DNA from: Sphingomonadaceae bacterium
GTDB taxonomy: Bacteria > Pseudomonadota > Alphaproteobacteria > Sphingomonadales > Sphingomonadaceae
Length of the DNA: 35,018 nt
Direction of reading: 5' to 3'
NCBI GenBank assembly: GCA_020847445.1
Contig: JADLBY010000015.1
Location: 1 to 35,018, forward strand
A program made the position numbers and the translations under genes. This document shows, one piece after another, positions 901 to 20,858 of the stretch; position 1 is the first letter of the stretch; each line of letters begins with the position of its first letter. A model generated the notes under the pieces. It was given only the letters and a program-made list of their open reading frames with translations, did no database searches and had not been told where the DNA came from.

Positions 901-2400
901 TCAGAACATCGCGCCCGGCACCCAGGGAACCCATTCATTTTCGCCCAGCCCCAGCGCCTCCGACGCCGTTTGGCGTCCGCTGGCGGTGGCGAGCAGATAG
1001 TCGAACAGCTGTTCGCCCATCTGCTGCAGCGAAACCCCGTTCAGAACGGCGCTGCAGTCGACGTCGATATCGTCTGCCATTGCCATGGCCAGCACGGCGT
1101 TGCTTGCCAGCTTGATGGTCGGCACCGGGCCCGATCCAAAGACCGAGCCCCGCCCGGTCGTGAAGAGAATGAGATTGGCCCCGCCGGCGATCTGCCCGGT
1201 AGCAGAGCAGGGATCATAGCCGGGGGTGTCCATGAAGGTCAGGCCCGGCCCGTCCACCGCGCCCGCATAATCGACCACCGCGTTCAGCGGCGATGTGCCT
1301 GCCTTGGCAACGGCGCCCAGCGACTTTTCAAGGATTGTCGTTATGCCGCCCGCCTTGTTGCCGGGCGACGGGTTGTTATCGAGGCTGGCGCCATCGCGTG
1401 CGGCATATTCTTCCCACCAGCCGAGGCGATCGATCAGCGATTGCGCCACTTGCGGACTGGCCGCCCGGCGCAACAGCAAATCTTCGGCGCCGAAGATCTC
1501 CGGCGTTTCGGAAAGGATCGCCCTTCCTCCGGCGCCGATCAGCAGGTCGGTCGCCGCCCCCAATGCCGGATTTGCGGTCAAGGCCGAATAGCCGTCCGAC
1601 GCGCCGCATTGCAGGCCGATGGTCAGGTGCTGCGCAGAGACGGGCTGGCGTGTGCACAGGTTGGCGATCGGCAGCATCGCTTCGACAATCGCTGTCCCGG
1701 CGGCGATGGCCGCGATGGTTCCGCCTGCGTCCTGAATCGATAATTGCCGCAGGCGCGCGCCTTCGGCCAATCCGGCGGAATCGAGCAGCGGATCGATCTG
1801 GTTGACCTCGCAACCCAGGCCGACAATCAGCGTTGCCGCAAAATTCGGATGAGCGGCATAGCCCGATATTGTCCGGCGCAAATTGTCGATTCCACGCCCC
1901 GTCTTCGCCATCCCGCATCCGGACATATGGCTGAACGCGATCACGCCATCGACATTGGGATATGCGGCAAGCCGTTCAGGCGTAAAATGCGCGGCGATGC
2001 GTTTGGCGACCGTGGCAGAGCAGTTCACCGACGTGAGGATCGCGATATGGTTGCGCGTGCCGACCCGTCCGTCGGGCCGGACAAAGCCGTCAAACGATGC
2101 CTGTCGCGGCGCAGGCAGAACAATGTCGGTGCCGACCGCGTTTCGATCGACCCGGCCTGCAAAGGCAAGATTATCGACGTGCACATGCTCGCCCGCAGCT
2201 ATCTCGCGGCTGGCAACACCGATTGCATGCCCCAGTTTGAACACCGGCGCGCCTTGGGCAATCGCCTGGATCGCAAATTTGTGCCCGGCGGGCACGGGGG
2301 CAAGGAGCGTGACACCATCGAGGATATCGCCCGCGTCGAGCGCCTCTAGGGCGATGGCGACATTGTCCCGGCTATGGGCGATGAGCCATCGTCGCTGCAT
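901..2400 (-). CDS. uxaA: Altronate dehydratase (UxaA)
   Basis: A 499-residue protein of the UxaA family, which dehydrates D-altronate to 2-keto-3-deoxygluconate (KDG) in cytoplasmic galacturonate catabolism. Length matches the E. coli enzyme, about 495 residues. The N-terminal 80-90 residues form a SAF-type domain (DAGDILDGVTLLAPVPAGHK, later EIAAGEHVHVDNLAF). The catalytic part has family signatures: GRVGTRNHIAILTSVNCSAT, FSHMSGCGM, GLGCEVNQID and GLQCGASDGYS. The conserved Cys residues suit the iron/manganese-dependent dehydratase chemistry of the family. It is the last gene of a leftward three-gene operon, 7 bp after the transporter stop. Its partner reductase and isomerase lie at 17-20 kb. 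No clear terminator follows it. Confidence 0.93.
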   Translation of the reverse strand: MQRRWLIAHSRDNVAIALEALDAGDILDGVTLLAPVPAGHKFAIQAIAQGAPVFKLGHAIGVASREIAAGEHVHVDNLAFAGRVDRNAVGTDIVLPAPRQASFDGFVRPDGRVGTRNHIAILTSVNCSATVAKRIAAHFTPERLAAYPNVDGVIAFSHMSGCGMAKTGRGIDNLRRTISGYAAHPNFAATLIVGLGCEVNQIDPLLDSAGLAEGARLRQLSIQDAGGTIAAIAAGTAIVEAMLPIANLCTRQPVSAQHLTIGLQCGASDGYSALTANPALGAATDLLIGAGGRAILSETPEIFGAEDLLLRRAASPQVAQSLIDRLGWWEEYAARDGASLDNNPSPGNKAGGITTILEKSLGAVAKAGTSPLNAVVDYAGAVDGPGLTFMDTPGYDPCSATGQIAGGANLILFTTGRGSVFGSGPVPTIKLASNAVLAMAMADDIDVDCSAVLNGVSLQQMGEQLFDYLLATASGRQTASEALGLGENEWVPWVPGAMF

Positions 2401-2407: not shown

Positions 2408-3694
2408 CTATTCGACTTCGACCCGCGCCAGCCTGGGCGACAGCAGGTGGATGGCGAAAACGGCGAGGAAATAGGTCACCGTGCAGGCGGCAAAGATCAG
2501 CGTGTAATTGCCACCGGTTGCGTCGAGCACAAGCCCGGTCGATTTGGCCATGATCATCCCGCCAATGCCACCGGCAAAACCGCCCAGACCAATGGCCGAT
2601 CCAACCGCGCGCTTTGGAAACATGTCGGGCGGGATCGACAGCAGGTTTGACGAAAAGGACTGATGCCCGGCAAGCGCAATGCCGATCAGCACAACGGCAA
2701 GCCACATATTGCCGATGCCAGTGACGAAGAGCAACGGCAGCACGCAGCAACCGGATAGCAGCATTGTCGCCTTGCGTGCAAAATTGGGCGTGCGGCCGTT
2801 CTGGATGAGCTTTGACGACATCCAGCCGCCAGCGATACTGCCGACATCGGACAGCAGATACATGATGATCATCGGCAACAGCACGACTTTCAGATCGACC
2901 TGATAGGTGGAGCTGAAATATTTGGGCAGCCAGAACAGCATCAGGAACCAGACCGGATCGGTCAGGAATTTGGCCACGGCAAAGGCCCAGGCCTCGCGTT
3001 TGCGCACAAGCCGCGACCAACCGATCTGCGCGATCGTTTCAGGCGGATCATGCTCGATCCAGGCGAGTTCGGCGTCGCTGACCTTCCCGCTTTCGCGCGG
3101 ATTGCTGTAATGCCAGAGCCACAGGCCGAGCAACAGGACGCCGAACAACCCGGAAACGATGAAGGTCTGGCGCCAGTCCAGCCCGAAATGGACCATCAGC
3201 AGCGCAATCGTCGGCGCGGTAAGGATGACGCCGATGGTGGTCGCGGAATTGACCCAACCGATCGCATAGGCGCGTTCCTTCTGCGGGAACCATTCGCTGC
3301 TGGCGCGCACCACCGAGGGGAAATGTCCGGCTTCGCCCACGCCCAGCACGACGCGCGCGGCCATGAACGAACCCACCGATGCGGCAAAGCCGTGTGCGAC
3401 ATGGCCTATGGTCCAGATGCTGATCGCGATGGCATAGCCGATTTTGGGGCCAAACCTGTCGATCAGCCAGCCCATGATCAGGAAACCCGTGGCATAGGCC
3501 GCCTGAAATGCAGTGACGATATTGCCATAATCGTCTTCGCTCCAGCCCATTTCCTTGCCCAGATCGGGGGCCAGCAGGCCGAGCATCGTGCGGTCGATAT
3601 AGTTGACCGTGGTCGCAAGGAAGAGGAGCGCGATAATCGTCCAGCGATACCGCCCCGCACCGGGGGTTGCATGCGCCGCTGCAGAATGTGTCAT
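2408..3694 (-). CDS. MFS transporter, ACS family, probable hexuronate importer (ExuT-like)
   Basis: A 428-residue major facilitator protein with about twelve hydrophobic segments. It opens with a helix around WTIIALLFLATTVNYIDRT, where the NYIDR motif is typical of the anion:cation symporter family that includes hexuronate transporter ExuT and glucarate and galactonate permeases. The start chosen is the ATG preceded by GGAGAGGA, 13 codons inside the longest frame. That places it 25 bp after the hydratase stop, which fits an operon. Next to uxaA, the likely substrate is galacturonate or another hexuronate moved across the inner membrane with protons. Substrate choice within this family cannot be read from sequence alone. 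Confidence 0.88.
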   Translation of the reverse strand: MTHSAAAHATPGAGRYRWTIIALLFLATTVNYIDRTMLGLLAPDLGKEMGWSEDDYGNIVTAFQAAYATGFLIMGWLIDRFGPKIGYAIAISIWTIGHVAHGFAASVGSFMAARVVLGVGEAGHFPSVVRASSEWFPQKERAYAIGWVNSATTIGVILTAPTIALLMVHFGLDWRQTFIVSGLFGVLLLGLWLWHYSNPRESGKVSDAELAWIEHDPPETIAQIGWSRLVRKREAWAFAVAKFLTDPVWFLMLFWLPKYFSSTYQVDLKVVLLPMIIMYLLSDVGSIAGGWMSSKLIQNGRTPNFARKATMLLSGCCVLPLLFVTGIGNMWLAVVLIGIALAGHQSFSSNLLSIPPDMFPKRAVGSAIGLGGFAGGIGGMIMAKSTGLVLDATGGNYTLIFAACTVTYFLAVFAIHLLSPRLARVEVE

Positions 3695-3719
3695 GTCCTC
3701 TCCTCTCCCGTCGATCCGC

Positions 3720-4526
3720 TCAGGCCGTGGCAAATGCTATCTGGCAGCCTATTCCGGCAAAATCGCCGAAACGGGCTTCGAATTTCTGACCGGCGGAAAT
3801 TTCGTGCACCCCGGTGACCGCCCCGGTTGACACCAGAAGGCCGGGCGCAATGGCGATCCCGCGCGAAAGCAGGTTCTCGACCAGATATTTGACCGAACCC
3901 AGCGGACCATCGGGAAAGGCGGACGCCCGGCCCGTTCCGACTTCTGCGCCGTCGATACTGGCGGTAACGACCCAGTCGTCCAGCCCCGCCCCACGCCAGT
4001 CGGGAATTTCCTGCCCCAGGATCAGTCCATTATTGTTGCCGAAATCGGAAATCGTGACCAACGGACCCTGCCTGTTGATTCCGGCGAAGGGTGAACTGGC
4101 CACTTCAATGCCGATGAAAACTGCGTCGACCAGATCGGCTGTCTCCGCAAGCGACAATCTGGTGGTTCCGGGTTTCGGCGCTGATCCCAGCCTGAAAACA
4201 AATTCGGCCTCTGCGGCACCGAAGCCGTTGCGGAATATTTCGCCGGTAGCGACCTCGTCAGCGGCCGCAGTCTTGATCCTTTTGGCAAATATCGGCCCCG
4301 GAAGGCGGTTCGTGCCCAGCCTTTCCAGCCAGGGCGAATTGATTCGGCCCACTTTCCAGCCTGCGACCGGCTCTCCGAACAGCGCAATGGCAGCATCCTG
4401 GATGGCCAGTGCGCCGCCCAGATCGGCAGGCTCGACCCCCGGATAATCCGCCAATGCAGCGGCATTGCGACGCGCGCTGACAAATGCCGCGGCAATGCTT
4501 CTGGCTTCGGCAATTTTCGGCAACAC
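3720..4526 (-). CDS. MhpD-like 2-keto-4-pentenoate hydratase family protein
   Basis: A 268-residue protein of the hydratase/decarboxylase branch of the fumarylacetoacetate hydrolase superfamily, near the usual 260-270 residues. Features seen include the N-terminal helix pair (EARSIAAAFVSARR), GWKVGRIN around residue 57, the acidic metal-site segment AAEAEFVFRLGS, and FIGIEVASSPF. Known relatives hydrate 2-hydroxypenta-2,4-dienoate in aromatic meta-cleavage pathways, but none of those genes are nearby. Here it leads an operon with a uronate transporter and altronate dehydratase, so a 2-keto-3-deoxy sugar acid or related enol is a plausible substrate; that is inference. The start is a GTG preceded by AAGGGGAAG. 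An overlapping ATG four bases upstream is out of frame. Confidence 0.8.
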   Translation of the reverse strand: MLPKIAEARSIAAAFVSARRNAAALADYPGVEPADLGGALAIQDAAIALFGEPVAGWKVGRINSPWLERLGTNRLPGPIFAKRIKTAAADEVATGEIFRNGFGAAEAEFVFRLGSAPKPGTTRLSLAETADLVDAVFIGIEVASSPFAGINRQGPLVTISDFGNNNGLILGQEIPDWRGAGLDDWVVTASIDGAEVGTGRASAFPDGPLGSVKYLVENLLSRGIAIAPGLLVSTGAVTGVHEISAGQKFEARFGDFAGIGCQIAFATA

Positions 4527-4563
4527 GCATCTTCCCCTTGGTATGTCGTTACGGCACAGCTAT

Positions 4564-4579
4564 GGGAAACCGGTGTCAT
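4564..4579. promoter_or_regulatory. Putative LacI-family operator 1
   Basis: GGGAAACCGGTGTCAT, with a perfect right half (GGTGTCAT) and a degenerate left half of the palindrome ATGACACC|GGTGTCAT. It lies between the divergent hydratase operon and the lacI-type gene, so it could control both. Three related sites are found at 5687, 11516 and 11651. Confidence 0.65.
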
Positions 4580-4643
4580 TTACAAGAATGCTTGGCTGAC
4601 GAGCCCGATATTTATTGCTATGCATCGCAAAATTCAGGGATAA

Positions 4644-5672
4644 GTGCGAACCTTAATGAAGCCGACCATTAACGATATTGCACGCATTGCGGGCGTTTCG
4701 AAGAAGACAGTCAGCCGGGTGATCAACGATTCGCCGCTGTTGACCGAGGAGACGCGCGACAAGGTTAAGGCGGTTATTTCCGAGGTCGGATATGTGCCGA
4801 ACCCGCAGGCACGGGCTCTGGCGCTGGGACGCAACTTCCTGATCGGCCTGGTCCATGACAATCCGAACGCGCAGATGATTCTCAACATGCAGCAGGGCAT
4901 ATTGGAAGGTCTGCGCGATACGGAATTTGCGATGGGGGTGCAGCCGGTCAACCGCAGCTCGCCGACTTTGGTTGAGGATATTCGCGGCTTCATCGTCCGC
5001 CACCGGCTCTACGGCATCGTCATCCTGCCGCCGATTTCGGAAAATGATGCCGTCGCCAGAATGTGCGTCGATGCGGGCTGCCGCTATGTCCGCATGGGTT
5101 CGGCCGTTCTCGATCAAAGCGAGCATATGGTCGCATCGAACGACCGTGACGCGGTTCGGGATGCCACGCAATTCCTTATAGAACAAGGGCATAGGGACAT
5201 AGCGATTGTGACGGGGCCACATGGCTTCCGTTCCGCGGCCGAACGTCTGGCCGGTTTTGAGGATGCGCTCGCCGCCGCAAATATCGGGCTGCCGCGCAGT
5301 TTCCGGGCGCAGGGCGAATATACGTTCGATTCGGGGCTGGTCGCGACCGAAAAGCTGCTCGACCTGTCACCGCGTCCGACCGCAATCTTTGCCTCGAACG
5401 ACGAGATGGCCGCTGCCGTCCTCTATGCCGCACGCCTGCGCGGCATCAGGGTGCCCGAGGATCTTTCGATCGTCGGATTTGACGATACACCGATTGCTTC
5501 GCGTGTCTGGCCGCCGTTGACAACGGTGCGCTGGCCGATTGTCGCAATGGGGCGCTCCGCCGCACATAAGCTGATTGCCGGTGCGGTCGACGGGATCGAT
5601 CTGGGCAACGAGCCGTCCGAATTTCTTTCCACGCTCATCCGCAGGGGGTCCGTCGCGCCACCCAAGCAATGA
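4644..5672 (+). CDS. LacI-family transcriptional regulator of the uronate locus
   Basis: A 342-residue LacI/GalR repressor. The N-terminal helix-turn-helix reads TINDIARIAGVSKKTVSRVI, followed by the hinge helix region (NPQARALALGR). From about residue 65 there is a periplasmic-binding-protein-like effector domain with family signatures GFDDTPIASRVWPPLTTV and ASNDEMAAAVLYAA. The effector is probably a uronate intermediate such as KDG or galacturonate, judged only by neighbours. The start is uncertain. A GTG at 4644 follows AGGGA with short spacing, while an ATG four codons later (4656) begins the usual MKPTI-type N-terminus but lacks a well-placed ribosome site. It sits between two operators and likely represses or autoregulates the locus. 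Confidence 0.93.
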   Translation: MRTLMKPTINDIARIAGVSKKTVSRVINDSPLLTEETRDKVKAVISEVGYVPNPQARALALGRNFLIGLVHDNPNAQMILNMQQGILEGLRDTEFAMGVQPVNRSSPTLVEDIRGFIVRHRLYGIVILPPISENDAVARMCVDAGCRYVRMGSAVLDQSEHMVASNDRDAVRDATQFLIEQGHRDIAIVTGPHGFRSAAERLAGFEDALAAANIGLPRSFRAQGEYTFDSGLVATEKLLDLSPRPTAIFASNDEMAAAVLYAARLRGIRVPEDLSIVGFDDTPIASRVWPPLTTVRWPIVAMGRSAAHKLIAGAVDGIDLGNEPSEFLSTLIRRGSVAPPKQ

Positions 5673-5686
5673 GCTTGCATTTGCAA

Positions 5687-5702
5687 ATGACACCGGTTAC
5701 CT
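5687..5702. promoter_or_regulatory. Putative LacI-family operator 2
   Basis: ATGACACCGGTTACCT, with a perfect left half of the palindrome, lies in the 91-bp gap between the regulator stop and the isomerase start. It shares 15 consecutive bases with the site at 11516. A further 12-bp palindrome, CATTTGCAAATG (5678-5689), overlaps its left edge. Confidence 0.72.
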
Positions 5703-5763
5703 TGGGTGCGTACAGCATGGACGATCCATCTGGGCGTCAACCAATCCGGGACGAGGAATATTT

Positions 5764-6402
5764 ATGAAAATCGCGCTGATCACCGAAAACAGCCAGGCCG
5801 CGAAAAATGGCATCATCCATGATGCGCTGACCGCCGTTGCCGAGCCGCTTGGCCATCAGGTTTTCAATTACGGGATGTACACGGCCGAGGATGAAGCCTC
5901 GCTGACCTATGTCATGAACGGCCTGCTGACCGGCATACTGCTCAATTCGGGCGCGGCCGATTTTGTCGTTACCGGTTGCGGCACGGGGATGGGGTCGATG
6001 CTCGCCTGCAACGCGATGCCGGGCGTGTTCTGCGGCCTGGTGATCGATCCGACCGATGCCTTCCTGTTCAGCCAGATCAACGATGGCAATGCGATCTCCA
6101 TGCCCTATGCCAAGGGCTTTGGCTGGGCGGCCGAACTGAACCTGCAGGATTGCTACCGCAAGATTTTCGAGAATGAAGGCGGTGCTGGCTATCCCAAGGA
6201 GCGGGCGCATTTCATGGCCGCGAACCGCAGCATCCTGAAAGAGATGAAAGCCGCCTCGTGCAACGACATGCTGACCGTGCTCAAAAATGTCGATCAGGAT
6301 CTTTTGAAGGCGGCGATCGCTGGCGAACGCTTCGCCGACTATTTCTACCCCAATGCCAAAGACGAACAGATCGCCGCCTATCTGCGGGCGCTGACTGCCT
6401 GA
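5764..6402 (+). CDS. RpiB/LacA/LacB-family sugar isomerase, probable DhuI-type 5-keto-4-deoxyuronate isomerase
   Basis: A 212-residue protein of the RpiB/LacAB fold. Visible segments are MKIALITENSQAAKN, the loop VVTGCGTGMGSMLACN (the family's substrate-binding Cys/Gly loop) and DPTDAFLFSQINDGNA. It is longer than ribose-5-phosphate isomerase B (about 150 residues). It matches my recollection of the streptococcal DhuI group, which isomerises 4-deoxy-L-threo-5-hexosulose uronate to 3-deoxy-D-glycero-2,5-hexodiulosonate. That role fits its position one base upstream of kduD, which uses that product, and the absence of a classical KduI here. The ATG chosen is preceded by GAGGA; the longer frame runs back into the regulator. 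Identification as DhuI is by family memory and context, not assay. Confidence 0.85.
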   Translation: MKIALITENSQAAKNGIIHDALTAVAEPLGHQVFNYGMYTAEDEASLTYVMNGLLTGILLNSGAADFVVTGCGTGMGSMLACNAMPGVFCGLVIDPTDAFLFSQINDGNAISMPYAKGFGWAAELNLQDCYRKIFENEGGAGYPKERAHFMAANRSILKEMKAASCNDMLTVLKNVDQDLLKAAIAGERFADYFYPNAKDEQIAAYLRALTA

Positions 6403-6403
6403 A

Positions 6404-7174
6404 ATGGGCATTTCATTTGATCTGTCGGGCAAGGGTGCACTCGTCACCGGTGCCAATACCGGCATAGGCCAGGCAATCGCGGTCGCACTGGCTGAGGCGG
6501 GGGCCGATGTCGCGCTGGCGGGCCGTTCGGATCCGGTAGAGACGCTGAAACTGGTCGAGGCGACCGGGCGCAAGGCGGTCAACATCAGCGCCGACCTGTC
6601 GTCGACGCAGCCCGTCCAGCGCGTCGTCGACGAGGCGCTGGCGGGGCTTGGCCGGATCGACATATTGGTGAACAATGCCGGTATCATCCGCCGCAACGAC
6701 CTGCTCGATTTCGGCGAGGAGGATTGGGATGCGGTGATGGACACCAACCTCAAGACGCTTTTCTTTCTCAGCCAGGCGGCGGCGCGCCATATGGTGTCGC
6801 GCGGCCCGGAAAATGGCAGTGCCGGTAAGATCATCAACATCGCGTCGCTGCTGACCTTCCAGGGAGGAATCCGCGTGCCCAGCTATGCTGCGGCCAAATC
6901 GGGCGTCGGCGGCGTGACCAAGGCGATGGCGAACGAACTGGCGGCCAGCGGCGTGCAGGTGAACGCGATCGCGCCGGGCTATATCGCCACCAACAACACT
7001 GCTGCCTTGCAGGCGGACGCAACGCGCAGCCGCCAGATATTGGAACGCATCCCGACCGGACGCTGGGGCAGTCCGCAGGATATTGCCGGGGCTGCGGTCT
7101 TCCTCGCCTCGCCGGCATCGGATTATGTCACCGGCCATGTGCTGGCCGTGGACGGCGGCTGGCTCGCGCGCTAG
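6404..7174 (+). CDS. kduD: 2-dehydro-3-deoxy-D-gluconate 5-dehydrogenase (KduD)
   Basis: A 256-residue classical short-chain dehydrogenase. The cofactor motif TGANTGIG starts near residue 15 and NNAG follows near 90. The catalytic triad is S148, Y161 and K165 (SYAAAKSG). The C-terminus VDGGWLAR and the segments INIASLLTFQGGIRVPSY and NAIAPGYIATNNT closely match E. coli KduD. The enzyme reduces 3-deoxy-D-glycero-2,5-hexodiulosonate to KDG in unsaturated uronate catabolism. It starts one base after the isomerase stop, so the pair is translationally coupled and catalyses consecutive steps. Confidence 0.93.
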   Translation: MGISFDLSGKGALVTGANTGIGQAIAVALAEAGADVALAGRSDPVETLKLVEATGRKAVNISADLSSTQPVQRVVDEALAGLGRIDILVNNAGIIRRNDLLDFGEEDWDAVMDTNLKTLFFLSQAAARHMVSRGPENGSAGKIINIASLLTFQGGIRVPSYAAAKSGVGGVTKAMANELAASGVQVNAIAPGYIATNNTAALQADATRSRQILERIPTGRWGSPQDIAGAAVFLASPASDYVTGHVLAVDGGWLAR

Positions 7175-7183
7175 TTTGACGGC

Positions 7184-8194
7184 ATGGCGGGCCCGATCCT
7201 GTTCTTTGGCGAATTGCTGATCCGGCTCACCGCGCCGGGCAACGAACTGCTGATGCAGTCGCCGACGCTCAACCTGCATGTCGGCGGTGCCGAGGCGAAT
7301 GTCGCGATCGGGCTTGCGCGGCTGGGACATGCCACCCGGATGGTCAGCGTCGTTCCCGATAACGCGCTGGGCCGAGGCACGCTCTCCACCGTCCGTTCGC
7401 ACGGGGTCGATTGCAGCGCGGTATCGCAAGCTCCGGGGCGGATGGGCCTGTATTTCCTTCAGGTCGGCGCAGGCTTGCGTTCGTCCGAAATTGTCTATGA
7501 CCGCGCAGGATCGAGCTTTGCGCAGGCGGGTGCCGATGCCTTTGACTGGGACTCTCTGCTTGCAGGCGCACGATTGCTGCACCTGTCGGGGATCACACCG
7601 GCGCTGGGCCCGCAATCGGCGGAGCACGCGCTGGCGGCGGCGCGTGCGGCGCGGCGGCTGGGCGTGCCGCTTTCGTTCGACGGCAATTATCGCGCGTTGT
7701 TGTGGGACGCATGGAACAGCGATCCGCGGGCAATCCTTTCCGAGCTGATCGGAATGGCCGACATATTGTTCGGCAACCATCGCGACCTGTCGCTGGTTCT
7801 GGGCAGGCAGTTCAGCGGCGAGGGGGAGGATCGGCGGCGCGAGGCGGCTGAGGCCGGGTTCGCGGCCTTTCCCGACCTTAAACTGATCGCCTCGACCGCG
7901 CGCCACACGGTCAGCGCCGATCATCACCGCATCGCCGCGCGCGTCGACCTGCGCGATGGCGGCTATCAGACCTCCGAAACCGAAGTGACCGGGATCGTCG
8001 ACCGCATCGGTGCGGGCGATGCCTTTGCGGCGGGCGTGCTGCACGCGCATCTGGGTGGTGGCGATGCAAAGACGATGGCAGAAAGCGGGCTCGCGCTGAC
8101 GTGCCTCAAACACTCGCTTCCCGGCGATGCGAGCCTGTTCGGGCAGGGCGATATCGATGCCTTCATGGCGGGTGGGCTCGATGTCCGGCGTTGA
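7184..8194 (+). CDS. kdgK: 2-dehydro-3-deoxygluconokinase (KdgK), PfkB family
   Basis: A 336-residue PfkB/ribokinase-fold sugar kinase. It starts with the typical strand ILFFGELLIRLTAPG and has the GGAEANVAIGLARLG motif near residue 33. The ATP-site/catalytic signature DRIGAGDAFAAGVLHA lies near residue 270, with the GAGD anion hole and catalytic Asp. KdgK phosphorylates KDG to KDPG, the point where the saturated (UxaA) and unsaturated (KduD) uronate branches of this locus converge. It begins 9 bp after kduD and its end overlaps the esterase start by 14 bp, consistent with one operon. The KDPG aldolase needed next is not in the window. Confidence 0.92.
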   Translation: MAGPILFFGELLIRLTAPGNELLMQSPTLNLHVGGAEANVAIGLARLGHATRMVSVVPDNALGRGTLSTVRSHGVDCSAVSQAPGRMGLYFLQVGAGLRSSEIVYDRAGSSFAQAGADAFDWDSLLAGARLLHLSGITPALGPQSAEHALAAARAARRLGVPLSFDGNYRALLWDAWNSDPRAILSELIGMADILFGNHRDLSLVLGRQFSGEGEDRRREAAEAGFAAFPDLKLIASTARHTVSADHHRIAARVDLRDGGYQTSETEVTGIVDRIGAGDAFAAGVLHAHLGGGDAKTMAESGLALTCLKHSLPGDASLFGQGDIDAFMAGGLDVRR

Positions 8195-9716
8195 TGGCTG
8201 GAGCCGCCGCGCTGTGTTGACGGCCGGCATTGGCTTTGCCGGATTGTGCGCATATCGGTTGAGTGCAACCACGATCAGATTACCTGAAATATTCGCGCCG
8301 TCGGGACGGTATATTGGCAGCTTCGTGTACGATCCTGCCGATCAGGTAACGGTTCAGGCGCATCGCTATTCTGGATTACGTTATGGCAGGGCTGCACGGT
8401 TCCAGCCGCCAACGCTAGTACAATCAAAAAATTTGATGGATGAGCAGGCGCCGGGCTATGGTTCTGCTGCGCCACAACAAGGGTCAAAATACGATCCGAC
8501 ATCGGAAGACTGCCTTTTCCTAAATGTTTGGACGCCAGCCCATCTTTATGAAAGCAAAGGCCCGAAACTGCCCGTCATGGTCTATTTCCACGGCGGTGCC
8601 TATTCGACCGGCTCGGTTACCGATCCACTGAACGACGGTGCTGCCCTCGCCGCGCGCGGCGATGTGGTCGTGGTCACCGTCAACCACCGGCTCAATGCGC
8701 TGGGCTATCTCTATCTGCCGGACCGCTTCCCCGACAGCGGCAATAATGGCCAGCTCGATCTGATCTGCGCGCTGCAATGGGTGCAGCGCAACATATCTGC
8801 CTTTGGCGGTGACCCCGAAAATGTCACTGTCTTTGGCCAGTCGGGCGGGGGCGCGAAGATTGCGACGCTGATGGCAATGCCAGCCGCCAAGGGGCTGTTT
8901 CACAAGGCGATCACGATGAGCGGGCAGCAGGTAACGGCTTCCGGTCCGCTGAATGCAGCAAGGCGGGCGCAAGCGTTGCTCGATAGGCTCGGGTCCGGGG
9001 TCGATCCCGCAACCGCGCCGGTCGAACAGCTGGTGGCCGCACTGTCGGCAACCGATCCTATCCTTGGCGGCGGGGTCTATATGGGGCCGGTGCTCGACAT
9101 GCGGAACCTGTACCGCCACCCTTTCTGGCCCGATGCCGCGCCGCAGTCGCTCGATATGCCGATGCTGCTGGGTAATACCGTGGCGGAAACCCGCGCCTTC
9201 TTCCCGCCCGACCATCCCAGACTGAAGGGACTGGACTTTGGCAATCTGCCGCAGCGCATCGCCCCGGAAATGCGCATCGACGCCCGGCCCGACTGGGTGG
9301 TGGGGGAATTCCGCGCGCGCTATCCCAGGGACAGCGCCGAACAACTGTTCCACCGCATCGTCACCGCCGCGCGCAGCTGGCGCGGGCAGGTGGAGGAGGC
9401 TGATGCACGGGCCCGCGCCGGGCGCGGCAACACTTTCGTTTACCAGCTCGACTTCGAACAGGCGAAACATACCGACGATATCGGCTTGTCTTTCGGGACC
9501 ATTGCCAGCCCAACGCCAGCGCAGACGGCAATGAGCCAAACCGTAATGGACGCCTTCATCCGCTTTGCCAAAACCGGCAATCCCGGCTGGACTCCCTATG
9601 AGCTGAAAGCACGCAAGACGATGGTGTTCGATACCCAAAGTCGCGTCGTCGCCGATCCGCGCAAATGGGAACGCGAACTGTTCGCCCGCATCCCCTATGT
9701 GCAGCCGGGAACGTAA
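8181..9716 (+). CDS. Exported type-B carboxylesterase
   Basis: A 511-residue alpha/beta hydrolase of the carboxylesterase type B family. The N-terminus WSRRAVLTAG plus a hydrophobic stretch resembles a twin-arginine signal. Family segments present: SEDCLFLNVWTP, VYFHGGAY (oxyanion hole) and the nucleophile elbow FGQSGGGAK. An acidic residue in NTVAETRAFF and a His in KHTDDIGLSFG complete the expected triad. The elbow GQSGGG differs from the common GESAGG. A role in removing acyl or methyl esters from pectin is inferred from context. The start at 8181 overlaps kdgK and gives the signal sequence; longer frames add unrelated residues. Roughly 8205-8570 is visibly richer in A/T than the rest of the gene. 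Confidence 0.85.
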   Translation: MSGVDGWSRRAVLTAGIGFAGLCAYRLSATTIRLPEIFAPSGRYIGSFVYDPADQVTVQAHRYSGLRYGRAARFQPPTLVQSKNLMDEQAPGYGSAAPQQGSKYDPTSEDCLFLNVWTPAHLYESKGPKLPVMVYFHGGAYSTGSVTDPLNDGAALAARGDVVVVTVNHRLNALGYLYLPDRFPDSGNNGQLDLICALQWVQRNISAFGGDPENVTVFGQSGGGAKIATLMAMPAAKGLFHKAITMSGQQVTASGPLNAARRAQALLDRLGSGVDPATAPVEQLVAALSATDPILGGGVYMGPVLDMRNLYRHPFWPDAAPQSLDMPMLLGNTVAETRAFFPPDHPRLKGLDFGNLPQRIAPEMRIDARPDWVVGEFRARYPRDSAEQLFHRIVTAARSWRGQVEEADARARAGRGNTFVYQLDFEQAKHTDDIGLSFGTIASPTPAQTAMSQTVMDAFIRFAKTGNPGWTPYELKARKTMVFDTQSRVVADPRKWERELFARIPYVQPGT

Positions 9717-9718
9717 TA

Positions 9719-9737
9719 AATAGGGACTGTCCCTATT
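9719..9737. terminator. Palindromic bidirectional terminator / REP-like element
   Basis: AATAGGGACTGTCCCTATT is a perfect 9-bp inverted repeat around a single base, with a T run continuing to 9740 on the plus strand and an A run before it. It lies directly after the esterase stop and contains the stop codon of the convergent cupin gene, so it probably terminates both transcripts. Confidence 0.65.
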
Positions 9738-10119
9738 TTTGATTATTCGGATAGCTGATGATGATCGTCAGCGGTTTCCTGCCCAGCTGTTTGATGCCGA
9801 CCACCGCATCCTTGTACAGATAGGCCGCCATTCCGGGTTTCAAACGCTGCGTCACGCCGTCGCTGGTCACATCGCCTTCGCCCGAAAGCACATAATAGAC
9901 CTCGTCATGCGCGATCGGGTGCAGGCCGATCGCGGCGCCCCGGTGCAGCACGCGCTTGCGGAATTCCATCGCGCGCGGAGGCGGCGCGGCGTCGCTGATC
10001 CGATAGGCGGTCGACAGGCCGATATTGCCGTGCGGCGGTGGCTCCTCGCGCCGCACATCCTCTTCGTGCACCACAACCATCGGCGGCGCAGCCATAGCCA
10101 GTAACAGCGACAGCATCAT
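9733..10119 (-). CDS. Small exported cupin-domain protein
   Basis: A 128-residue protein starting with a hydrophobic stretch (MMLSLLLAMAAPPMVVV) that looks like a short signal peptide or anchor, followed by one cupin barrel. Cupin motif 1 is recognisable (H67, H71, E73 in GLHPIAHDEVYYVLSGEG). Motif 2 (LKPGMAAYLYKDAVVGI) lacks the usual His. The start codon overlaps the pectate lyase stop as ATGA, so the two are translationally coupled. KdgF, which linearises unsaturated galacturonate, is also a small cupin. That role is possible by context, but the incomplete metal site and apparent export argue for caution. Its stop codon lies in the palindrome at 9719-9737. Confidence 0.75.
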   Translation of the reverse strand: MMLSLLLAMAAPPMVVVHEEDVRREEPPPHGNIGLSTAYRISDAAPPPRAMEFRKRVLHRGAAIGLHPIAHDEVYYVLSGEGDVTSDGVTQRLKPGMAAYLYKDAVVGIKQLGRKPLTIIISYPNNQK

Positions 10120-11453
10120 TGCCGCATGCTCCGGTCGCGCGGGGAGAGCGCCTCCTGCGGCCCGCTTGTCTGGCCCGGATATGTGCCCGATTTCGGCTCC
10201 ATCGTGTCGAGGTTCCAATCGGCTTCGACAAAAGGTGCGGTCACAGCCTTGACCGCGCCGTAACTGCCGACCTCGCCTTCATCGTCGATAATCTCGCCGC
10301 GTCCTTCGGCGACGAAAAACAGCACGCGGATATCGTGCGCATCGCGGTCCCACGGCCGGGCCCCGGCCAGCGCCAGCACATGGGTTTCGACGTCGCGCGC
10401 CGGCAGCACCTGCAGCCCGGGCCACCAGCTGACCGGTTTCTTCGCGGCGATGATCCGCGCATGGGTTTCTCCATAGCGACCCAATTGCGGCAGCGGCACA
10501 CCATGTTTGTCGACCGCGATATTGTCCTTGCCATAATAGAGCAGATCGCCATCGCCGCCGAGCATCAGGAAGGGCAGCCCCGCATCGGTCGATGGCCCGC
10601 CGCGCATCACATTGCCGACCGCCGACAGCTCACCCGTGACATAGGGGTGTCCGGCCCATTCGAGCGCCATCAGATTGTAATGCACCGCGCGCTTGCCCGG
10701 ATCATAGATCAGGTTGTTGACCATCGCCGCCTGCACGCCACCTTTCAACAGCGGCGAACGCTCGACATTATGCGCCCAGATGTTGCGATAGAACAGGATG
10801 CCGGTCGTATTATCGTGCACCAGCGATCCCTTGCTGTGCTCGCCCTTGGGGTGGCTCGAATCGGCCAGGCCTTCGGCCGCCAGATTATAGCTGAAGGTGA
10901 TGTTGCGGCTGGTGCCGCGCCGCCAGTCCTCCACGCTGTTGCCGGTGAAACGCGGGCCCGAGGCGGACATATTCTCGTCGATCCCCCACATGAAGGTGCA
11001 GTGATCGATGATCACATTGTGCGCGGCGACGGTGGAGATCGAATCGGCTTCCCAGCCGCTCATCCGCTTCTCGCCATCGGCACCGGTGCGGACGCGGATA
11101 TGGCGGATGATGACGTCGTGCGTCTTGAGGTCGATACCGCCCTTGATCAGTGTGATTCCGGGCGAGGGCGCGGTCTGCCCGGCTATCGTCAGAAAGGGTT
11201 CGGTGATCTGCAGGCTGGTCTTGCCCAGATCAATCTGGCCTGCCACTTCGAACACCACGATGCGCGGCCCCTTTGCCTCGATAGCGGCTTTCAAACTGCC
11301 CGGCCCGTCGGCGTTCAGATTGGTCACACGGATGATCTGCCCGCCGCGCCCGCCGGGCGTTTCGCTGGCCCAGCCGACGGCTCCGGGAAAGGCAGGGGTG
11401 GCCACCGCCGGCGTGGCGGCCGCCAGGATCAGACAGGCAATTATCGTACGCAA
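10116..11453 (-). CDS. Secreted pectate lyase, polysaccharide lyase family 1-like
   Basis: A 445-residue right-handed beta-helix lyase. A signal peptide (MRTIIACLILAAATPAVA) precedes AFPGAVGWASETPGGRGG, the usual start of bacterial pectate lyases of this type. Helix-turn segments typical of the family follow: RVTNLNADGPGSLKAAIEA, LTIAGQTAPSPGITL, VIIRHIRVRTG, NVIIDHCTFMWGIDENMS and HNVERSPLLKGG. It should cleave polygalacturonate by beta-elimination outside the cytoplasm or in the periplasm, giving unsaturated oligogalacturonates for the DhuI-like/KduD branch. The start is a TTG eight bases after GGAGG; the longer ATG frame would spoil the signal peptide. A LacI operator lies upstream at 11516. 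Confidence 0.9.
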   Translation of the reverse strand: MRTIIACLILAAATPAVATPAFPGAVGWASETPGGRGGQIIRVTNLNADGPGSLKAAIEAKGPRIVVFEVAGQIDLGKTSLQITEPFLTIAGQTAPSPGITLIKGGIDLKTHDVIIRHIRVRTGADGEKRMSGWEADSISTVAAHNVIIDHCTFMWGIDENMSASGPRFTGNSVEDWRRGTSRNITFSYNLAAEGLADSSHPKGEHSKGSLVHDNTTGILFYRNIWAHNVERSPLLKGGVQAAMVNNLIYDPGKRAVHYNLMALEWAGHPYVTGELSAVGNVMRGGPSTDAGLPFLMLGGDGDLLYYGKDNIAVDKHGVPLPQLGRYGETHARIIAAKKPVSWWPGLQVLPARDVETHVLALAGARPWDRDAHDIRVLFFVAEGRGEIIDDEGEVGSYGAVKAVTAPFVEADWNLDTMEPKSGTYPGQTSGPQEALSPRDRSMRQ

Positions 11454-11515
11454 CGGGACAACCTCCAATTTCTTGCAGCATCTTGACATGAGCCGCGCTT
11501 TATCACAATGTTCTT

Positions 11516-11531
11516 ATGACACCGGTTACCA
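11516..11531. promoter_or_regulatory. Putative LacI-family operator 3
   Basis: ATGACACCGGTTACCA lies between the divergent pectate lyase and TonB-receptor genes, 63 bp from the lyase start. It is identical over 15 bases to operator 2. Its centre is 135 bp from operator 4, a spacing that would allow a DNA loop across the shared control region. Confidence 0.72.
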
Positions 11532-11650
11532 TAAAGCAATTCCGCCGGATTATCAGATCGCAGAAAATGCGGCAAATCCGGAGAAATCAAACAGAAACCG
11601 GGCAATATGGGACAGAGGAGGGCGCTTGATCTGCCTTTGTCCGAATCACT

Positions 11651-11666
11651 TAGACACCGGTGTCAT
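11651..11666. promoter_or_regulatory. Putative LacI-family operator 4
   Basis: TAGACACCGGTGTCAT contains the perfect 12-bp palindrome GACACCGGTGTC, the most symmetrical of the four sites. It lies 25 bp before the TonB-receptor start, where bound repressor would block transcription or early elongation. Confidence 0.75.
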
Positions 11667-11690: not shown

Positions 11691-14543
11691 ATGAAAGTCT
11701 CGAAAAACGCTTCGTCCAGGCAGTTGATGGTGCACCTTCTGTCCGCGACTTCGATTGCCGTGCTGGCCGCCGGTTCGGCGCAGGCCCAGGAAGCGCCCGC
11801 CGAAGATGCCGTCGCCACCGAAGCCGCAGCCGAGGACGAAATCGTCGTCACCGGTTTCCGCCAGTCGCTGGAGGCGGCGCTGAACGTCAAGCGCGACTCG
11901 GTCGCAGCCGTCGATGCCATCGTTGCCGAAGACATTGCCAAATTCCCCGACCAGAACCTTGCCGAATCGCTGCAGCGTATTCCGGGCATCTCTATCTCGC
12001 GTGATGCAGGCGAAGGGCGCGCAATCACCGTGCGCGGCCTTTCGAGCCAGTTTACCCGCGTTCGTGTCAACGGCATGGAAACCATCGCCACCTCGACCGA
12101 CGGCGCCGCTGCAAATCGCGACCGCGCTTTCGATTTCAACGTGTTCGCGTCAGAACTGTTCAGCAGCCTCGTCGTCCACAAAACCGCTTCGGCCTCGCTC
12201 GATGAAGGTTCGCTCGGGGCGGTCGTCGATCTCAACACCGGCAACCCGCTGGGCGGCAAGTCCGGGCTTCGGGGCGCCGTCTCGGTCATTGGCTCCTATA
12301 ACGATCTGTCCAAGGATTTTGGTCCGCGGCTTGCGGGCCTGCTCAGCTGGCGCAACGACGCAGGCACCTTCGGCATTTCGGCCTCGGCTGCCTATTCGAA
12401 AACCAATGTGCTGGAACTGGGCAACAACACCGTCCGCTGGGCGCAAGCCCGTTTCGACGGTGTGGGCACGACCAACTGCTTCACCACCCAGAATTCGGGC
12501 GGCACCTATGTTGCGAGCGCGGCTTGCGACCAGGCGGCACTTGCATTCCACCCGCGCATCCCGCGTTATGGTGAGGTCGCCCATGATCGTGAACGTCTGG
12601 GCCTGACGGGATCGGTCCAGTTCGCGCCCACCGATTCGACCAAATTGTCGATCGACGCGCTCTATTCGAAATTCAGCGAGGATCGCGCGGAGTCCTGGGG
12701 CGAAGTGTTGCTGCGTTCGAATGAACGTTCGATCAATGTCGTCAACCCGGTCTATGATTCGAACAACAACATGATTTCGGCGACGCTCAACGACGCCTGG
12801 GTCCGCACCGAATCCTATCTGCGCAAAAGCTCGACCGAATTTTATCAGGTCGGCGGAACATGGGACCAGGATCTGGGTGACCGCTTCCGCTTCACCCTGA
12901 CCGGCGGGGTTTCCAAATCGAACGCCGACATCCCCGTCGAAACCACGATCGTCTTCGACGATCGCGATGCGCAGGGCTATCAGTTCGACTATAGCGATAT
13001 GGCCAATCCGCGGCTGACCTTTGGCACCAGCGTGACCACGCCCGGCAATTTCCAGCTGGCTGAAATCAGGGACCGGCCGTCCAACGTCACCAACCGTTTC
13101 AAGACCGTGCAACTGCGGACCGAATGGGATGTGGTCGACGATTTTACCGTCAAGCTCGGTGGCGTCTGGCGCCGGTTCGACTTTGATACCGTTGCCTTCA
13201 CCCGCGACACTGCGGTGTGCGGCAATGGTGGTGTCGATCGCGTGCTGGGAACGCTGACATGCTCCGCCACGTCGGCCTTTGGCCCGACCGCCGTCTATGG
13301 CTTCCCTGTCACCGCAGCGCTGTCGCAGCTGTTCAATCTCGGCAAGGCAGGACAGCCGGACGGTAACACGAACAGCTGGCTGGTGCCGAATATCGACGCG
13401 TCGGCTGCCTTTACCAACCTGTACAACCGCGCCCTCGTCGTCGATGCGGGCAACAATCGCGGCGTGAGGGAAGAAACCAAGGGCGCCTATTTCCAGGTCG
13501 ACGGCAAGGGCGAATTGCTTGGCCTCGAATATGCGGTCAACGCCGGTGTCCGCTATGTCAAAACCAGCCAGTCGTCCTACGGACTGGTCGGGGCGGTCAA
13601 TGCAACGGTCAAGCGCAGCTATGAAGACTGGCTGCCGTCTGCCAATATCGCGCTGTATCCGGCCGAAAATGTGATCATCCGTGCGGCGGTCGCGGATGTG
13701 ATGACACGCCCGACGCTGGGGTCGCTAACCCCGGGCGGTTCGGTCGACGGTTTCAACTTCCGCGTGACCAGCGGCAACCCCTTCCTGGAACCCTATCGGG
13801 CCACCAATTATGACCTGGCGCTCGAATGGTATTTCGCTCCGCAGGCGATCCTGTCGGTCGCGCTGTTCAAAAAGGATGTGCATAGCTTCACACGGTCGGC
13901 GTCAGTTACCGGCGCAACCTTCACGCAAACGGGGCTGCCGGTATCGGTGATCAATCCTTCGTCGCCCGCTGCGCTGAACCCGGCATTGCAGTCGCAGCCG
14001 ATCTGGACATTGGCGACCACCGTGAACGGCACGGGCGCGACGCTGAAGGGTGTCGAACTGGCGGCGCAAGTGCCGTTCAAGACATTTGCCGATGGTTTCC
14101 TGGGCAATTTCGGTGTTCTGGCCAATGCGACCTTCATCGACTCCGGCGCTGATTTCACCCTGCAGGGCCCGGCCATCGTCTCGGGCGGTGCGCTTCAGAA
14201 TGTCACCCTGAGCACGTCGCTCGCCAATGTCTCCAAGCGCGCCTATAATGGCACGCTCTATTATGACGACGGCGCGTTCAGTGCGCGTGTGATGGTCAGC
14301 TATCGCAGCCGCTATCACGAAGGCGCGAGCGGCACGGGCAATGTGCTGGAAGGTTATGGCGCAACCACGAACCTCGACGCATCGATGCGCTACAAGCTGA
14401 CCGAATGGCTCGAACTTTCGGTCGAGGGCAACAATCTGCTCGACACCTATCGCTATCGCTTCACCGATATCGATGCGGACCGGAACTATGAAAACAACCA
14501 TTTCGGCCGCACCATCCTGTTCGGTGCACGTATGAAGATCTAG
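11691..14543 (+). CDS. TonB-dependent outer-membrane receptor, probable pectin-oligomer importer
   Basis: A 950-residue TonB-dependent receptor. A signal peptide ends in AGSAQAQ near residue 31 and a TonB box follows (DEIVVTG near 50). The plug domain includes KRDSVAAVDAIVAEDIAKFP and LAESLQRIPGISISRDAG, the typical sphingomonad/Caulobacter carbohydrate-receptor plug. A 22-strand barrel region should extend to the C-terminus (FGRTILFGARMKI). The ATG at 11691 follows GGGGAG and gives the signal peptide. Flanked by pectate lyase and GH43 and preceded by two operators, it likely imports oligogalacturonides or arabinan-bearing fragments across the outer membrane. The exact ligand cannot be read from sequence. 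Confidence 0.94.
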   Translation: MKVSKNASSRQLMVHLLSATSIAVLAAGSAQAQEAPAEDAVATEAAAEDEIVVTGFRQSLEAALNVKRDSVAAVDAIVAEDIAKFPDQNLAESLQRIPGISISRDAGEGRAITVRGLSSQFTRVRVNGMETIATSTDGAAANRDRAFDFNVFASELFSSLVVHKTASASLDEGSLGAVVDLNTGNPLGGKSGLRGAVSVIGSYNDLSKDFGPRLAGLLSWRNDAGTFGISASAAYSKTNVLELGNNTVRWAQARFDGVGTTNCFTTQNSGGTYVASAACDQAALAFHPRIPRYGEVAHDRERLGLTGSVQFAPTDSTKLSIDALYSKFSEDRAESWGEVLLRSNERSINVVNPVYDSNNNMISATLNDAWVRTESYLRKSSTEFYQVGGTWDQDLGDRFRFTLTGGVSKSNADIPVETTIVFDDRDAQGYQFDYSDMANPRLTFGTSVTTPGNFQLAEIRDRPSNVTNRFKTVQLRTEWDVVDDFTVKLGGVWRRFDFDTVAFTRDTAVCGNGGVDRVLGTLTCSATSAFGPTAVYGFPVTAALSQLFNLGKAGQPDGNTNSWLVPNIDASAAFTNLYNRALVVDAGNNRGVREETKGAYFQVDGKGELLGLEYAVNAGVRYVKTSQSSYGLVGAVNATVKRSYEDWLPSANIALYPAENVIIRAAVADVMTRPTLGSLTPGGSVDGFNFRVTSGNPFLEPYRATNYDLALEWYFAPQAILSVALFKKDVHSFTRSASVTGATFTQTGLPVSVINPSSPAALNPALQSQPIWTLATTVNGTGATLKGVELAAQVPFKTFADGFLGNFGVLANATFIDSGADFTLQGPAIVSGGALQNVTLSTSLANVSKRAYNGTLYYDDGAFSARVMVSYRSRYHEGASGTGNVLEGYGATTNLDASMRYKLTEWLELSVEGNNLLDTYRYRFTDIDADRNYENNHFGRTILFGARMKI

Positions 14544-16260: not shown

Positions 16261-17249
16261 GGATGGACAGGCGTGCACTGCTCTGGACAGGCGCGGCAAC
16301 CGCCATCGCCGCCGCTGCCAATGCCCAGACACCCCCGCCCGCGACGGGCGGCCCATTGCCCGGCGGATTGCCGCAGCCGAGCGAAACGATCGACCTGTGG
16401 CCCGGCACCGCGCCCGGTGCGCCGCCGACATTGCCGACCGAGACGGTCAATGAACGCTCGACCGACCCTCAACTGACCGACAGGGCGGTCTTTGGCATCA
16501 GCCGCCCGCGCATGGCCGTATTCCGTCCGGCCAGACCCAATGGTGCAGCGGTGATGATCACGCCCGGCGGCGGCTATCGCTGGGTCGTGATCGACAAGGA
16601 AGGCTATGAGCTCGGCCGCTGGCTATCCGCGCGCGGCTATACGGTTTTCGTGCTCTTCTACCGCCTGCCCGGTGAAGGTTGGGCGGCCGGTCCCGATGTC
16701 GTGTTGCAGGACACGCAGCGCGCCATGCGCCTTATCCGTGATCGCGCCAGCGCATATGGCATCGATCCGGAACGGGTGGCAGCGATGGGCTTTTCGGCTG
16801 GAGGCCATGCCTGCGCCGACCTGGCCGCCCGTTTTGCGCAGACAGTCTATGCGCCCGTGGACAAGGCCGATGCGCTGTCGGCACGGCCGATTGTCGCCGC
16901 CCCGATCTATCCGGTGATTTCCATGTCGGCCCCTGCGGCCCATGCGGGCAGCCACGAAAAACTCATCGGTGCCAACGCCTCAGCTGCACTGGAAGAGGGG
17001 CACAGCCCGCACCGCCATATTCCCGCCAACGCGCCGCCGCACTTCATTCTGCATGCAGAGGATGATGATGTCGTGCCGGTCGACAACGCGTTGCTTCTGC
17101 GTGCGGCCCTGCGCGCGAAGGGCATAGCCGTCGAGACGCATCTCTTCACCCATGGCGGCCATGGCTTTGGCTTGCGCAAGGCCATCGGCAAGCCTGCCGA
17201 AGCATGGCCGGACCTGTTTCTTGCCTGGGCGAAAACACAAGGACTGTAA
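16257..17249 (+). CDS. Exported alpha/beta hydrolase, acetyl-xylan-esterase-like
   Basis: A 330-residue hydrolase. The N-terminus MDRRALLWTGAATAIAAAANAQ looks like a twin-arginine signal with an A-N-A cleavage site. Triad positions are S180 in GFSAGGH, an Asp in HAEDDDVVP near 270, and a His in THGGHGFG near 302. The oxyanion segment is MITPGGGYRWV. Relatives are deacetylases acting on plant polysaccharides, so a pectin or xylan acetylesterase role is likely but not proven. The start ATGA overlaps the GH43 stop; a second Met two codons on (16263) is an equally good start. Confidence 0.85.
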   Translation: MRMDRRALLWTGAATAIAAAANAQTPPPATGGPLPGGLPQPSETIDLWPGTAPGAPPTLPTETVNERSTDPQLTDRAVFGISRPRMAVFRPARPNGAAVMITPGGGYRWVVIDKEGYELGRWLSARGYTVFVLFYRLPGEGWAAGPDVVLQDTQRAMRLIRDRASAYGIDPERVAAMGFSAGGHACADLAARFAQTVYAPVDKADALSARPIVAAPIYPVISMSAPAAHAGSHEKLIGANASAALEEGHSPHRHIPANAPPHFILHAEDDDVVPVDNALLLRAALRAKGIAVETHLFTHGGHGFGLRKAIGKPAEAWPDLFLAWAKTQGL

Positions 17250-20023: not shown

Positions 20024-20125
20024 CAATCGGTTCGGTCGGCTATCGATCGGCGTTCTGACAACAACCGTCGCAATAGGCGTTTTTTGCGATTGCACGAAGC
20101 GTCTGCCCGCGATAGCGCAAAATAC

Positions 20126-20827: not shown

Positions 20828-20858
20828 CGGCAGTTGCAAAAAACGCAATCCTACTTGC

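Follow-up and report, generated by a model that had tools for sequence, protein, structure and literature searches.

A Probable LacI-Type Operator with Unlike Halves, Fixed Orientation, and Predicted Promoter Phases at the Pectin Locus of a Sphingomonadaceae Bacterium

The DNA analyzed here, referred to as the window, is a stretch of 35,018 nucleotides that constitutes one contig (C15; JADLBY010000015.1) of the 3.15-Mb genome of a Sphingomonadaceae bacterium, which was assembled into 232 contigs. It carries a gene cluster for pectin use with a LacI-family regulator and four copies of one short DNA site in the gaps between the genes. This site, which differs from the usual palindrome of LacI-family operators by having two unlike halves, accompanies homologs of the regulator in many related genomes, and its sequence varies with its predicted position in the promoter.

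The Pectin Locus

As a whole, the locus reads as a cluster that would encode a pathway from pectin to 2-keto-3-deoxygluconate (KDG). The regulator gene (4656..5672, + strand) encodes an N-terminal LacI helix-turn-helix domain and a periplasmic-binding-like sensor domain (PF00356, 65.6 bits, and PF13377, 127.9 bits, both above cut-off), which places the protein in the LacI/GalR family. Its start codon ATG 4656 is kept in three Sphingorhabdus relatives, and the alternative upstream GTG 4644 is less likely. The nearest relative in the named genome collection belongs to a metagenome-assembled genome of Sphingorhabdus (locus L208, 93% identity). Among solved structures, the protein is closest to a LacI-family protein (5ysz) and CcpA, and the genome contains four LacI-family genes in total.

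On the - strand, an operon consists of a gene for an FAA-hydrolase/hydratase-like protein (3720..4526; PF01557 with 20.6 bits, below the cut-off of 23.9), which is the first gene behind operator 1, a major facilitator superfamily (MFS) transporter gene (2408..3733; PF07690), and a uxaA-like altronate/galactarate dehydratase gene (901..2400; PF20629 and PF04295 above cut-off). On the + strand, the regulator gene is followed by genes for an RpiB/DUF3666 isomerase (5764..6402; PF12408, PF02502, and NF006753 above cut-off) that we take to be DhuI-like, a KduD dehydrogenase (6404..7174; TIGR01832 above cut-off), a pfkB sugar kinase that is a probable KDG kinase (7184..8194; PF00294, with the KDG-kinase models below their cut-offs), and a carboxylesterase (8127..9716; PF00135). 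The start of the latter is probably internal to this open reading frame (ORF), and a codon-usage gene finder places it at 8577. A pectate lyase gene (10116..11453, - strand) matches NF041900 with 360.5 bits (cut-off 840) and PF00544 just below cut-off, and the lyase and hydratase assignments are thus both based on matches below curated cut-offs. The lyase ORF extends to ATG 11489, overlapping the predicted -35 element of the receptor operon, but TTG 11453 behind a GGAGG is the likelier start; it would leave a plausible signal peptide. The receptor operon begins with a TonB-dependent receptor gene (11691..14543, + strand; PF00593 and PF07715), and GH43, esterase, uxaC, and uxaB-like genes form its remainder (14629..20023, + strand; PF04616, PF20434, PF02614, and PF01232/PF08125).

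The original prediction had located four sites with a shared core in this cluster, all of which are present where it placed them. Operator 1 (4565..4580, - strand; AATGACACCGGTTTCC) lies in the predicted promoter of the hydratase-like/MFS/uxaA operon, operator 2 (5686..5701, + strand; AATGACACCGGTTACC) in that of the isomerase-kduD-kinase operon, and operator 3 (11515..11530, + strand; TATGACACCGGTTACC) where the transcript of the receptor operon is predicted to begin. Operator 4 (11651..11666, - strand; ATGACACCGGTGTCTA) is near-palindromic and is an auxiliary or lyase operator candidate. Sites 2 and 3 are, as had been noted, identical over 15 bases (ATGACACCGGTTACC). All four sites have the CG center of an even, LacI-type operator (ACC-GGT), although the search core itself contains this CG and thus presupposes such a center. 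Among the 21 ACCGGT cores in the window, a TGAC flank on one side occurs only at the four sites, in agreement with the statement that the window holds no further copy.

The same holds for the genome. In the 3.15 Mb of sequence, the motif TGACACCGGTNNC is present exactly four times, each time at this locus (reversed control: 2), and a concentration of all four copies inside approximately 7.1 kb is excluded as a chance result. The operators thus precede catabolic genes and are few elsewhere, as is characteristic of a local regulon, and the motif is not frequent and unrelated to uronate genes genome-wide, a finding that would have spoken against the prediction. The sequence AATGACACCGGTTACC has three matches in the whole genome at one mismatch or fewer, all of them at the locus, and 19 at three or fewer mismatches compared to 13 for the control, which indicates that the 16 weaker matches are near chance level.

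Conservation of the Operator with the LacI Homolog

To assess the conservation of the site, 298 genomes of the family were searched with the regulator protein, and stretches of up to 20 kb around 87 matches were combined with the window into a set of 88 loci from 44 genera. The homologs in these loci are 54–76% identical to the regulator, except that in L125 (48%), and L124 is the second locus of one genome. The 10-bp core TGACACCGGT was found 288 times (286 physical sites), versus two occurrences of the reversed core, and 83 of the 88 loci had at least one copy. A held-out set was obtained from 404 relatives in another collection by keeping 80 loci and dropping 10 that overlapped with the first set. 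The resulting 70 loci contained 217 cores and no control, with the site present in 67. Outside the family, a class-wide search of 289 genomes yielded seven homologs from other families (47–52% identity), whose loci contained 22 cores versus no control; six of the seven had the site. The recognition helix VSKKTVSR is found in 88/88 loci, being extended to VSKKTVSRVIN in 83 and to VSKKTVSRFIN in five. In Sphingorhabdus contaminans (L209), all four sites are found at the same places as conserved islands in otherwise diverged gaps.

The copy number of TGACACCGGTNNC per genome also differs with the presence of the homolog, the median being 6 in the 86 genomes with a homolog and 1 in the 212 without (6.1 and 1.4 on average, with control averages of 0.7 and 0.8), although one outlier with 42 copies (G072) inflates the mean of the homolog-bearing genomes. 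A global regulon in this outlier was considered and rejected: by eye, most of 30 inspected copies were located in G + C-rich, coding-like sequence, many of them reading GAC-ACC-GGT-GTC, and only a few copies near the LacI locus resembled the operator. Raw copy number alone is no evidence. Taken over the family, the held-out set, and six of the seven loci from other families, a link of the operator to the neighboring LacI gene is well supported by these comparisons, and the compact local LacI regulon that had been proposed thus appears to be real.

Operator Structure and Polarity

Across the 88 loci, the operator has the consensus wTGACACC-GGTTWCC (the hyphen marks the center), which comprises an A-half TGACACC and a B-half GGTTWCC. 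When the flanks of every ACCGGT core were scored as A (TGAC) or B (GGTA, GGAA, AGTA, or AGAA), the 88 loci gave 223 A/B, 2 A/A, and 3 B/B combinations, besides 61 cores with A only, 25 with B only, and 517 with neither. The held-out loci showed the same pattern (A/B 132, A/A 0, B/B 0, A only 85, B only 44, neither 284), as did the out-of-family loci (A/B 11, A/A 1, B/B 0, A only 9, B only 4, neither 38), and cores with two different halves were present in 42 of the 44 genera examined. Within the B-half, C is conserved at +12 in 96% and at +13 in 75% of the sites. In the window, a search with the palindrome ATGACACCGGTGTCAT at up to three mismatches gave three matches versus 0.10 expected, sites 1 and 2 deviating from it by three positions each, site 4 by two, and site 3 by more than three. 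The four sites had been described as one palindrome, but sites 1–3 have two unlike halves and site 4 alone is nearly symmetric. The palindromic structure that is usual for LacI-family operators (Ravcheev et al., 2014; PMC4052901) is contradicted by the ratio of A/B to A/A and B/B cores, and the operator is mostly no palindrome and has two unlike conserved halves in a fixed orientation.

This orientation was determined relative to genes predicted by a simple codon-usage gene finder, according to which 280 of 288 sites are intergenic. At the 103 sites with one flanking gene reading away, the A-half was upstream in 94 cases and downstream in nine, two of the latter in L109, for which no flanking gene was predicted by the finder. 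Counted by genus, 37 were for this polarity, none against, and 3 were ties. The remaining 177 intergenic sites are situated between divergent genes and are uninformative on orientation. The FAA-hydrolase/hydratase-like gene, whose role in pectin use is unclear, was the most frequent mapped same-strand operator target (60 sites).

In natural lac operators, the deviating half is a weaker copy of the other half. The sites described here could likewise be ordinary LacI operators, read as a symmetric palindrome whose deviating half is merely weaker and whose asymmetry has no function. Near-palindromic sites such as site 4, which have an A-like second half, are consistent with this explanation. Of the 433 non-redundant sites, 63 are of this kind, among them the second site in the gap between lyase and receptor and some members of receptor doublets; receptor doublets outside the family are near-palindromic as well. 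Of these 63 sites, 58 lie outside the promoter phases R13, R7, and R33 defined below (31 of the 88 sites in class R1 and 27 of the 135 unphased sites). However, the B-half has a conserved sequence of its own and does not scatter around GTCA, the orientation is biased by 94 to 9, and the letter at +11 tracks the promoter phase, so that we regard an ordinary palindrome as unlikely.

Two unlike half-sites would also fit two unlike subunits. Since the genome has four LacI-family genes, the sites might be bound by another of these proteins or by a heterodimer of two paralogs, one per half. Against this, the copy numbers track the homolog of the regulator studied here, and its recognition helix is invariant. 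Furthermore, B/B palindromes (GGWAACCGGTTWCC) were found in 24 of 298 genomes compared to 18 for the reversed control, and hence there is no sign of a regulator that uses a B/B operator. A heterodimer with a paralog preferring the B-half was rejected on the basis of these near-control counts, and binding by any other LacI-family protein of this genome, alone or as a partner, is quite improbable.

Tandem operators were observed 21–22 bp apart in 11 of the 88 loci (L091, L094, L095, L097, L101, L106, and L110–L114) and 34 bp apart in three out-of-family loci (L297, L301, and L302), with one member often being near-palindromic.

Promoter Phases

The position of the operator relative to putative promoters was classified by the offset of a TTG upstream of it, and the phase labels R13, R7, R33, and R1 are based on upstream letters only. 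Among 263 non-redundant sites of the first set, TTG was enriched at -13 (48 sites), -7 (34), and -33 to -36 (71) relative to a mean of 8.5 per position, and was also found at -1 in 81 sites, where it is partly the operator itself. Pooling with the held-out set gave 433 non-redundant sites, which were distributed over R13 (72), R7 (67), R33 (71), R1 (88), and no phase (135), where R13 takes precedence if TTG is present at both -13 and -7. R1 is used as a label only and not claimed as a promoter phase, given that the operator is often flanked by a T at -1 and that matching -10 elements were observed chiefly in receptor doublets.

The phases R13 and R7 differ in the B-half. At the 72 of 433 sites with TTG at -13, the B-half contains TAC in 68 cases and TTC in none, whereas the sites with TTG at -7 (also 72 of 433) have TTC in 63 cases and TAC in five, all of which carry a TTG at -13 as well. 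The sites with TTG at -7 moreover have TA at +16 in 65 of 72 cases (65 of 67 in class R7). None of the other offsets between -24 and -2 was represented by more than 12 sites or showed a comparable coupling. The held-out set alone gave 22 of 24 and 37 of 41 for the two phases. Outside the family, TTG at -13 was combined with TAC in three of four sites, the fourth being a paired receptor-side site that reads GAC, and TTG at -7 was combined with TTC and TA at +16 in all three. The isomerase gene is preceded by TAC in 20 of 20 R13 versions of the site but by TTC in eight and TAC in two of its R33 versions, which breaks the confounding of phase with target gene. As related genomes are not independent, p-values for the phase coupling can serve as a guide only. 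In a mirrored control, for which CAA was sought downstream of the B-half, neither -13 nor -7 stood out. This control peaked at -2 (54) and -11 (25), with a further 11 sites at -33; we read the peak at -2 as the motif's own CCAA and that at -11 as the conserved GTCAA of receptor doublets.

Both R13 and R7 imply a 17-bp spacer as in sigma70-type promoters, and the operator would consequently lie in the spacer in R7 and supply the -10 element in R13. The predicted promoters of the window follow this scheme. Operator 1 is in phase R7, with a predicted -35 element TTGTAA (4580..4585, - strand; TTG at -7; TTGCAA in L208, L209, and L251) and a predicted -10 element TAGCTG (4557..4562, - strand; TA at +16), whose 17-bp spacer holds the operator. 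Operator 2 is in phase R13 (TTG also at -7). Its putative -35 element TTGCAT (5675..5680, + strand; TTG at -13) is kept in L208, L209, and L251, and the putative -10 element TACCTT (5698..5703, + strand), again after a 17-bp spacer, shares its first four bases with the end of the operator. Operator 3 is in phase R33, downstream of a predicted -35 element TTGACA (11483..11488, + strand) and a predicted -10 element CAATGT (11506..11511, + strand) with a 17-bp spacer, both of which are conserved in S. contaminans (L209). The overlap with -35 or -10 elements in some phases would be in line with a conserved block that functions chiefly as a promoter element for these genes, with the LacI gene as a bystander. 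The block, however, takes several positions relative to the promoter while its 10-bp core stays fixed, and TGACACCGGTNNC is found nowhere else in the genome. This explanation is therefore highly improbable.

Proposed Mechanism of Regulation

We consider it likely that the LacI-family repressor controls the whole pectin locus through one promoter-embedded operator type. The repressor encoded at 4656-5672 would sense a pectin breakdown product and recognize operators of the type TGACACC-GGTTWCC. The operator would occupy the -35/-10 spacer at site 1, begin the -10 element with its B-half at site 2, and cover the predicted transcription start of the receptor operon at site 3, and the near-palindromic site 4 could serve as an auxiliary operator or as that of the lyase. 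When bound, the repressor would keep RNA polymerase away until KDG, galacturonate, or another intermediate acted as effector and detached it. Operator polarity and the phase-dependent letter would arise because the operator shares bases with the promoter. A repressor that occupies the promoters is the simplest reading; binding, repression, and the effector are derived from what is usual in the LacI family.

A more specific, tentative model, to which we assign slightly less than even weight, is that of a directional operator. Here, the LacI dimer would read two different half-sites, and operator and sigma70-type promoter would have evolved as one fused module with a small number of fixed phases. 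Between two of these, which are separated by 6 bp, a letter of the B-half flips (TAC to TTC) according to its -10 duty. As polarity persists in a third phase, R33, without a shared promoter element, orientation itself may matter to the repressor.

Several observations weigh against the repressor model. The R33 sites are asymmetric and oriented although they overlap neither -35 nor -10, and promoter overlap alone is thus insufficient to explain the polarity. Of the 433 sites, 135 have no recognized promoter phase, and a further 88 have a TTG at -1 only, which may be just a T beside the operator. The core site is missing from 5 of 88 and 3 of 70 loci, and at least three copies of TGACACCGGTNNC occur unexplained in 40 of the 212 genomes without a homolog. 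The sole copy in another genome (G091) does not adjoin a mapped pectin gene. Since the genomes are related, p-values overstate the independence of the observations. Site identity, conservation, the link to the LacI homolog, asymmetry, orientation, and phase coupling can be read directly from the DNA, whereas it is inferred that the regulator binds the sites and represses rather than activates, which effector it senses, and that the predicted promoters are active and start transcription at the positions given. As to the 40 homolog-free genomes, some of their copies may be coding and some may belong to other regulators.

The Lyase-Receptor Gap

Site 3 adjoins the lyase gene, but a role as the lyase operator is not supported; it looks like the operator of the receptor operon because its promoter signals point to the latter. 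The receptor transcript predicted from this site would have a leader of approximately 175 nt. Behind site 4, inspection by eye revealed no convincing -35 and -10 elements of a lyase promoter, and this site may either be the lyase operator or assist the receptor promoter as an auxiliary site.

The 135-bp spacing of sites 3 and 4 is correct as a center-to-center distance, and DNA looping between the two sites had been suggested on this basis. In the lac case, a tetramer can loop 135 bp, so that this distance would be within reach, and convergent pairs of sites more than 50 bp apart recur (21 in the 88 loci), many of them in the lyase-receptor gap. However, these 21 convergent pairs, which are not all from the lyase-receptor gap and beside which there are 16 pairs of other orientations, vary in spacing between 67 and 190 bp and gave no significant helical phasing in Rayleigh tests (p = 0.81, 0.51, and 0.10 at 10, 10.5, and 11 bp). 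The distance is 144 bp in L209, the closest relative with the full gap. No conserved helical phase is thus apparent for the 135-bp spacing although convergent pairs recur, and joint action of sites 3 and 4 by looping is possible but less likely than not.

Comparison with Known Systems

In kind, the local LacI regulon is ordinary, whereas the oriented, promoter-phased operator is its unusual part. According to a survey of LacI-family sugar regulons (Ravcheev et al., 2014; PMC4052901), regulators lie beside their targets, sites are even with a central CG and mostly located 30–140 bp upstream of starts, and doublets occur 22 bp apart, as they also do in the present operator set. The motifs are described there as palindromes made up of conserved inverted repeats, in contrast to the unlike halves, the polarity, and the letter tied to promoter phase found here. 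The same source describes LacI-family control of uronate catabolism by UxaR, UxuR, and KdgR of Bacteroides, a different lineage, which the present system would resemble in this respect. In Shewanella, NagR of the LacI family controls a local catabolic regulon that includes outer-membrane uptake; its DNA binding and release by the sugar have been demonstrated, but the sugar is N-acetylglucosamine and not a uronate (PMC3223726). The study also states that weak palindromes were chosen as motif seeds. Given such descriptions and seeds, an asymmetric operator could have been overlooked.

Our operator set offers a further comparison, as its A-half resembles the NagR motif, presumably the symmetric AATGACAnCGnTGTCATT. 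The E. coli lac operator O1 is covered by LacI over the transcription start, is imperfectly symmetric in its natural form, and is assisted by auxiliary operators, all of which have likely counterparts at the pectin locus. In contrast to O1, the asymmetry described here consists of a second half-site conserved across dozens of genera, and many of the sites lie inside the promoter. A literature search for TGACACCGGTGTCA yielded no match, those for TGACACCGGT were unrelated judging by their titles, and among the matches listed there was no description of this regulon or operator, nor did passages of PMC3870299 contain anything on the regulon.

Many sphingomonads, and also some other families in the class, would share a pectin regulon of this type. 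Its searchable operator would also predict promoters, transcription starts, and distant targets. With hundreds of sites, it may be a clean natural case of one DNA word with two readers, repressor and polymerase, and motif searches seeded with palindromes could miss or symmetrize such operators.

Distant Sites and Other Target Genes

Beyond the local regulon, the operator in some genomes also marks homologs of the same genes at positions distant from the regulator gene. Copies outside the local stretch were inspected in four genomes (G043, G123, G245, and G205), in addition to G091 mentioned above. All three distant copies in both G043 and G123 are beside homologs of window genes, two of them before the hydratase/MFS pair approximately 15 kb from the regulator and the third between esterase and receptor genes on another contig. 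Two of three copies in G245 lie in a hydratase/receptor gap approximately 11 kb from the regulator, just past the extracted stretch. Among the 11 copies of G205, eight of nine examined have a window-gene homolog no more than 1.5 kb away, and the distant targets include uxaB, uxaC, GH43, and a lyase-like gene at 100 kb or more from the regulator.

In one genus (g2; L077–L079 and L153–L155), six loci have a second operator that points at the LacI gene from a position 38–42 bp upstream, which suggests direct autoregulation. A regulator paralog with 54–57% identity and the helix VSKKTVSRF is encoded in L120–L124 (e.g., L123:8456-9424 and 9635-10684) together with a single TGACACCGGTTACC operator that has TTG at -12 in five of five loci. 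The operator in L123 precedes a TRAP (tripartite ATP-independent periplasmic) transporter dctPQM set near a heparinase-like gene, and thus the same operator is associated with different cargo. Directly after uxaB, at 20084-25907, the window itself continues with genes for a CRP/FNR-type regulator and a cbb3 oxidase (ccoN-, O-, P-, and G-like).

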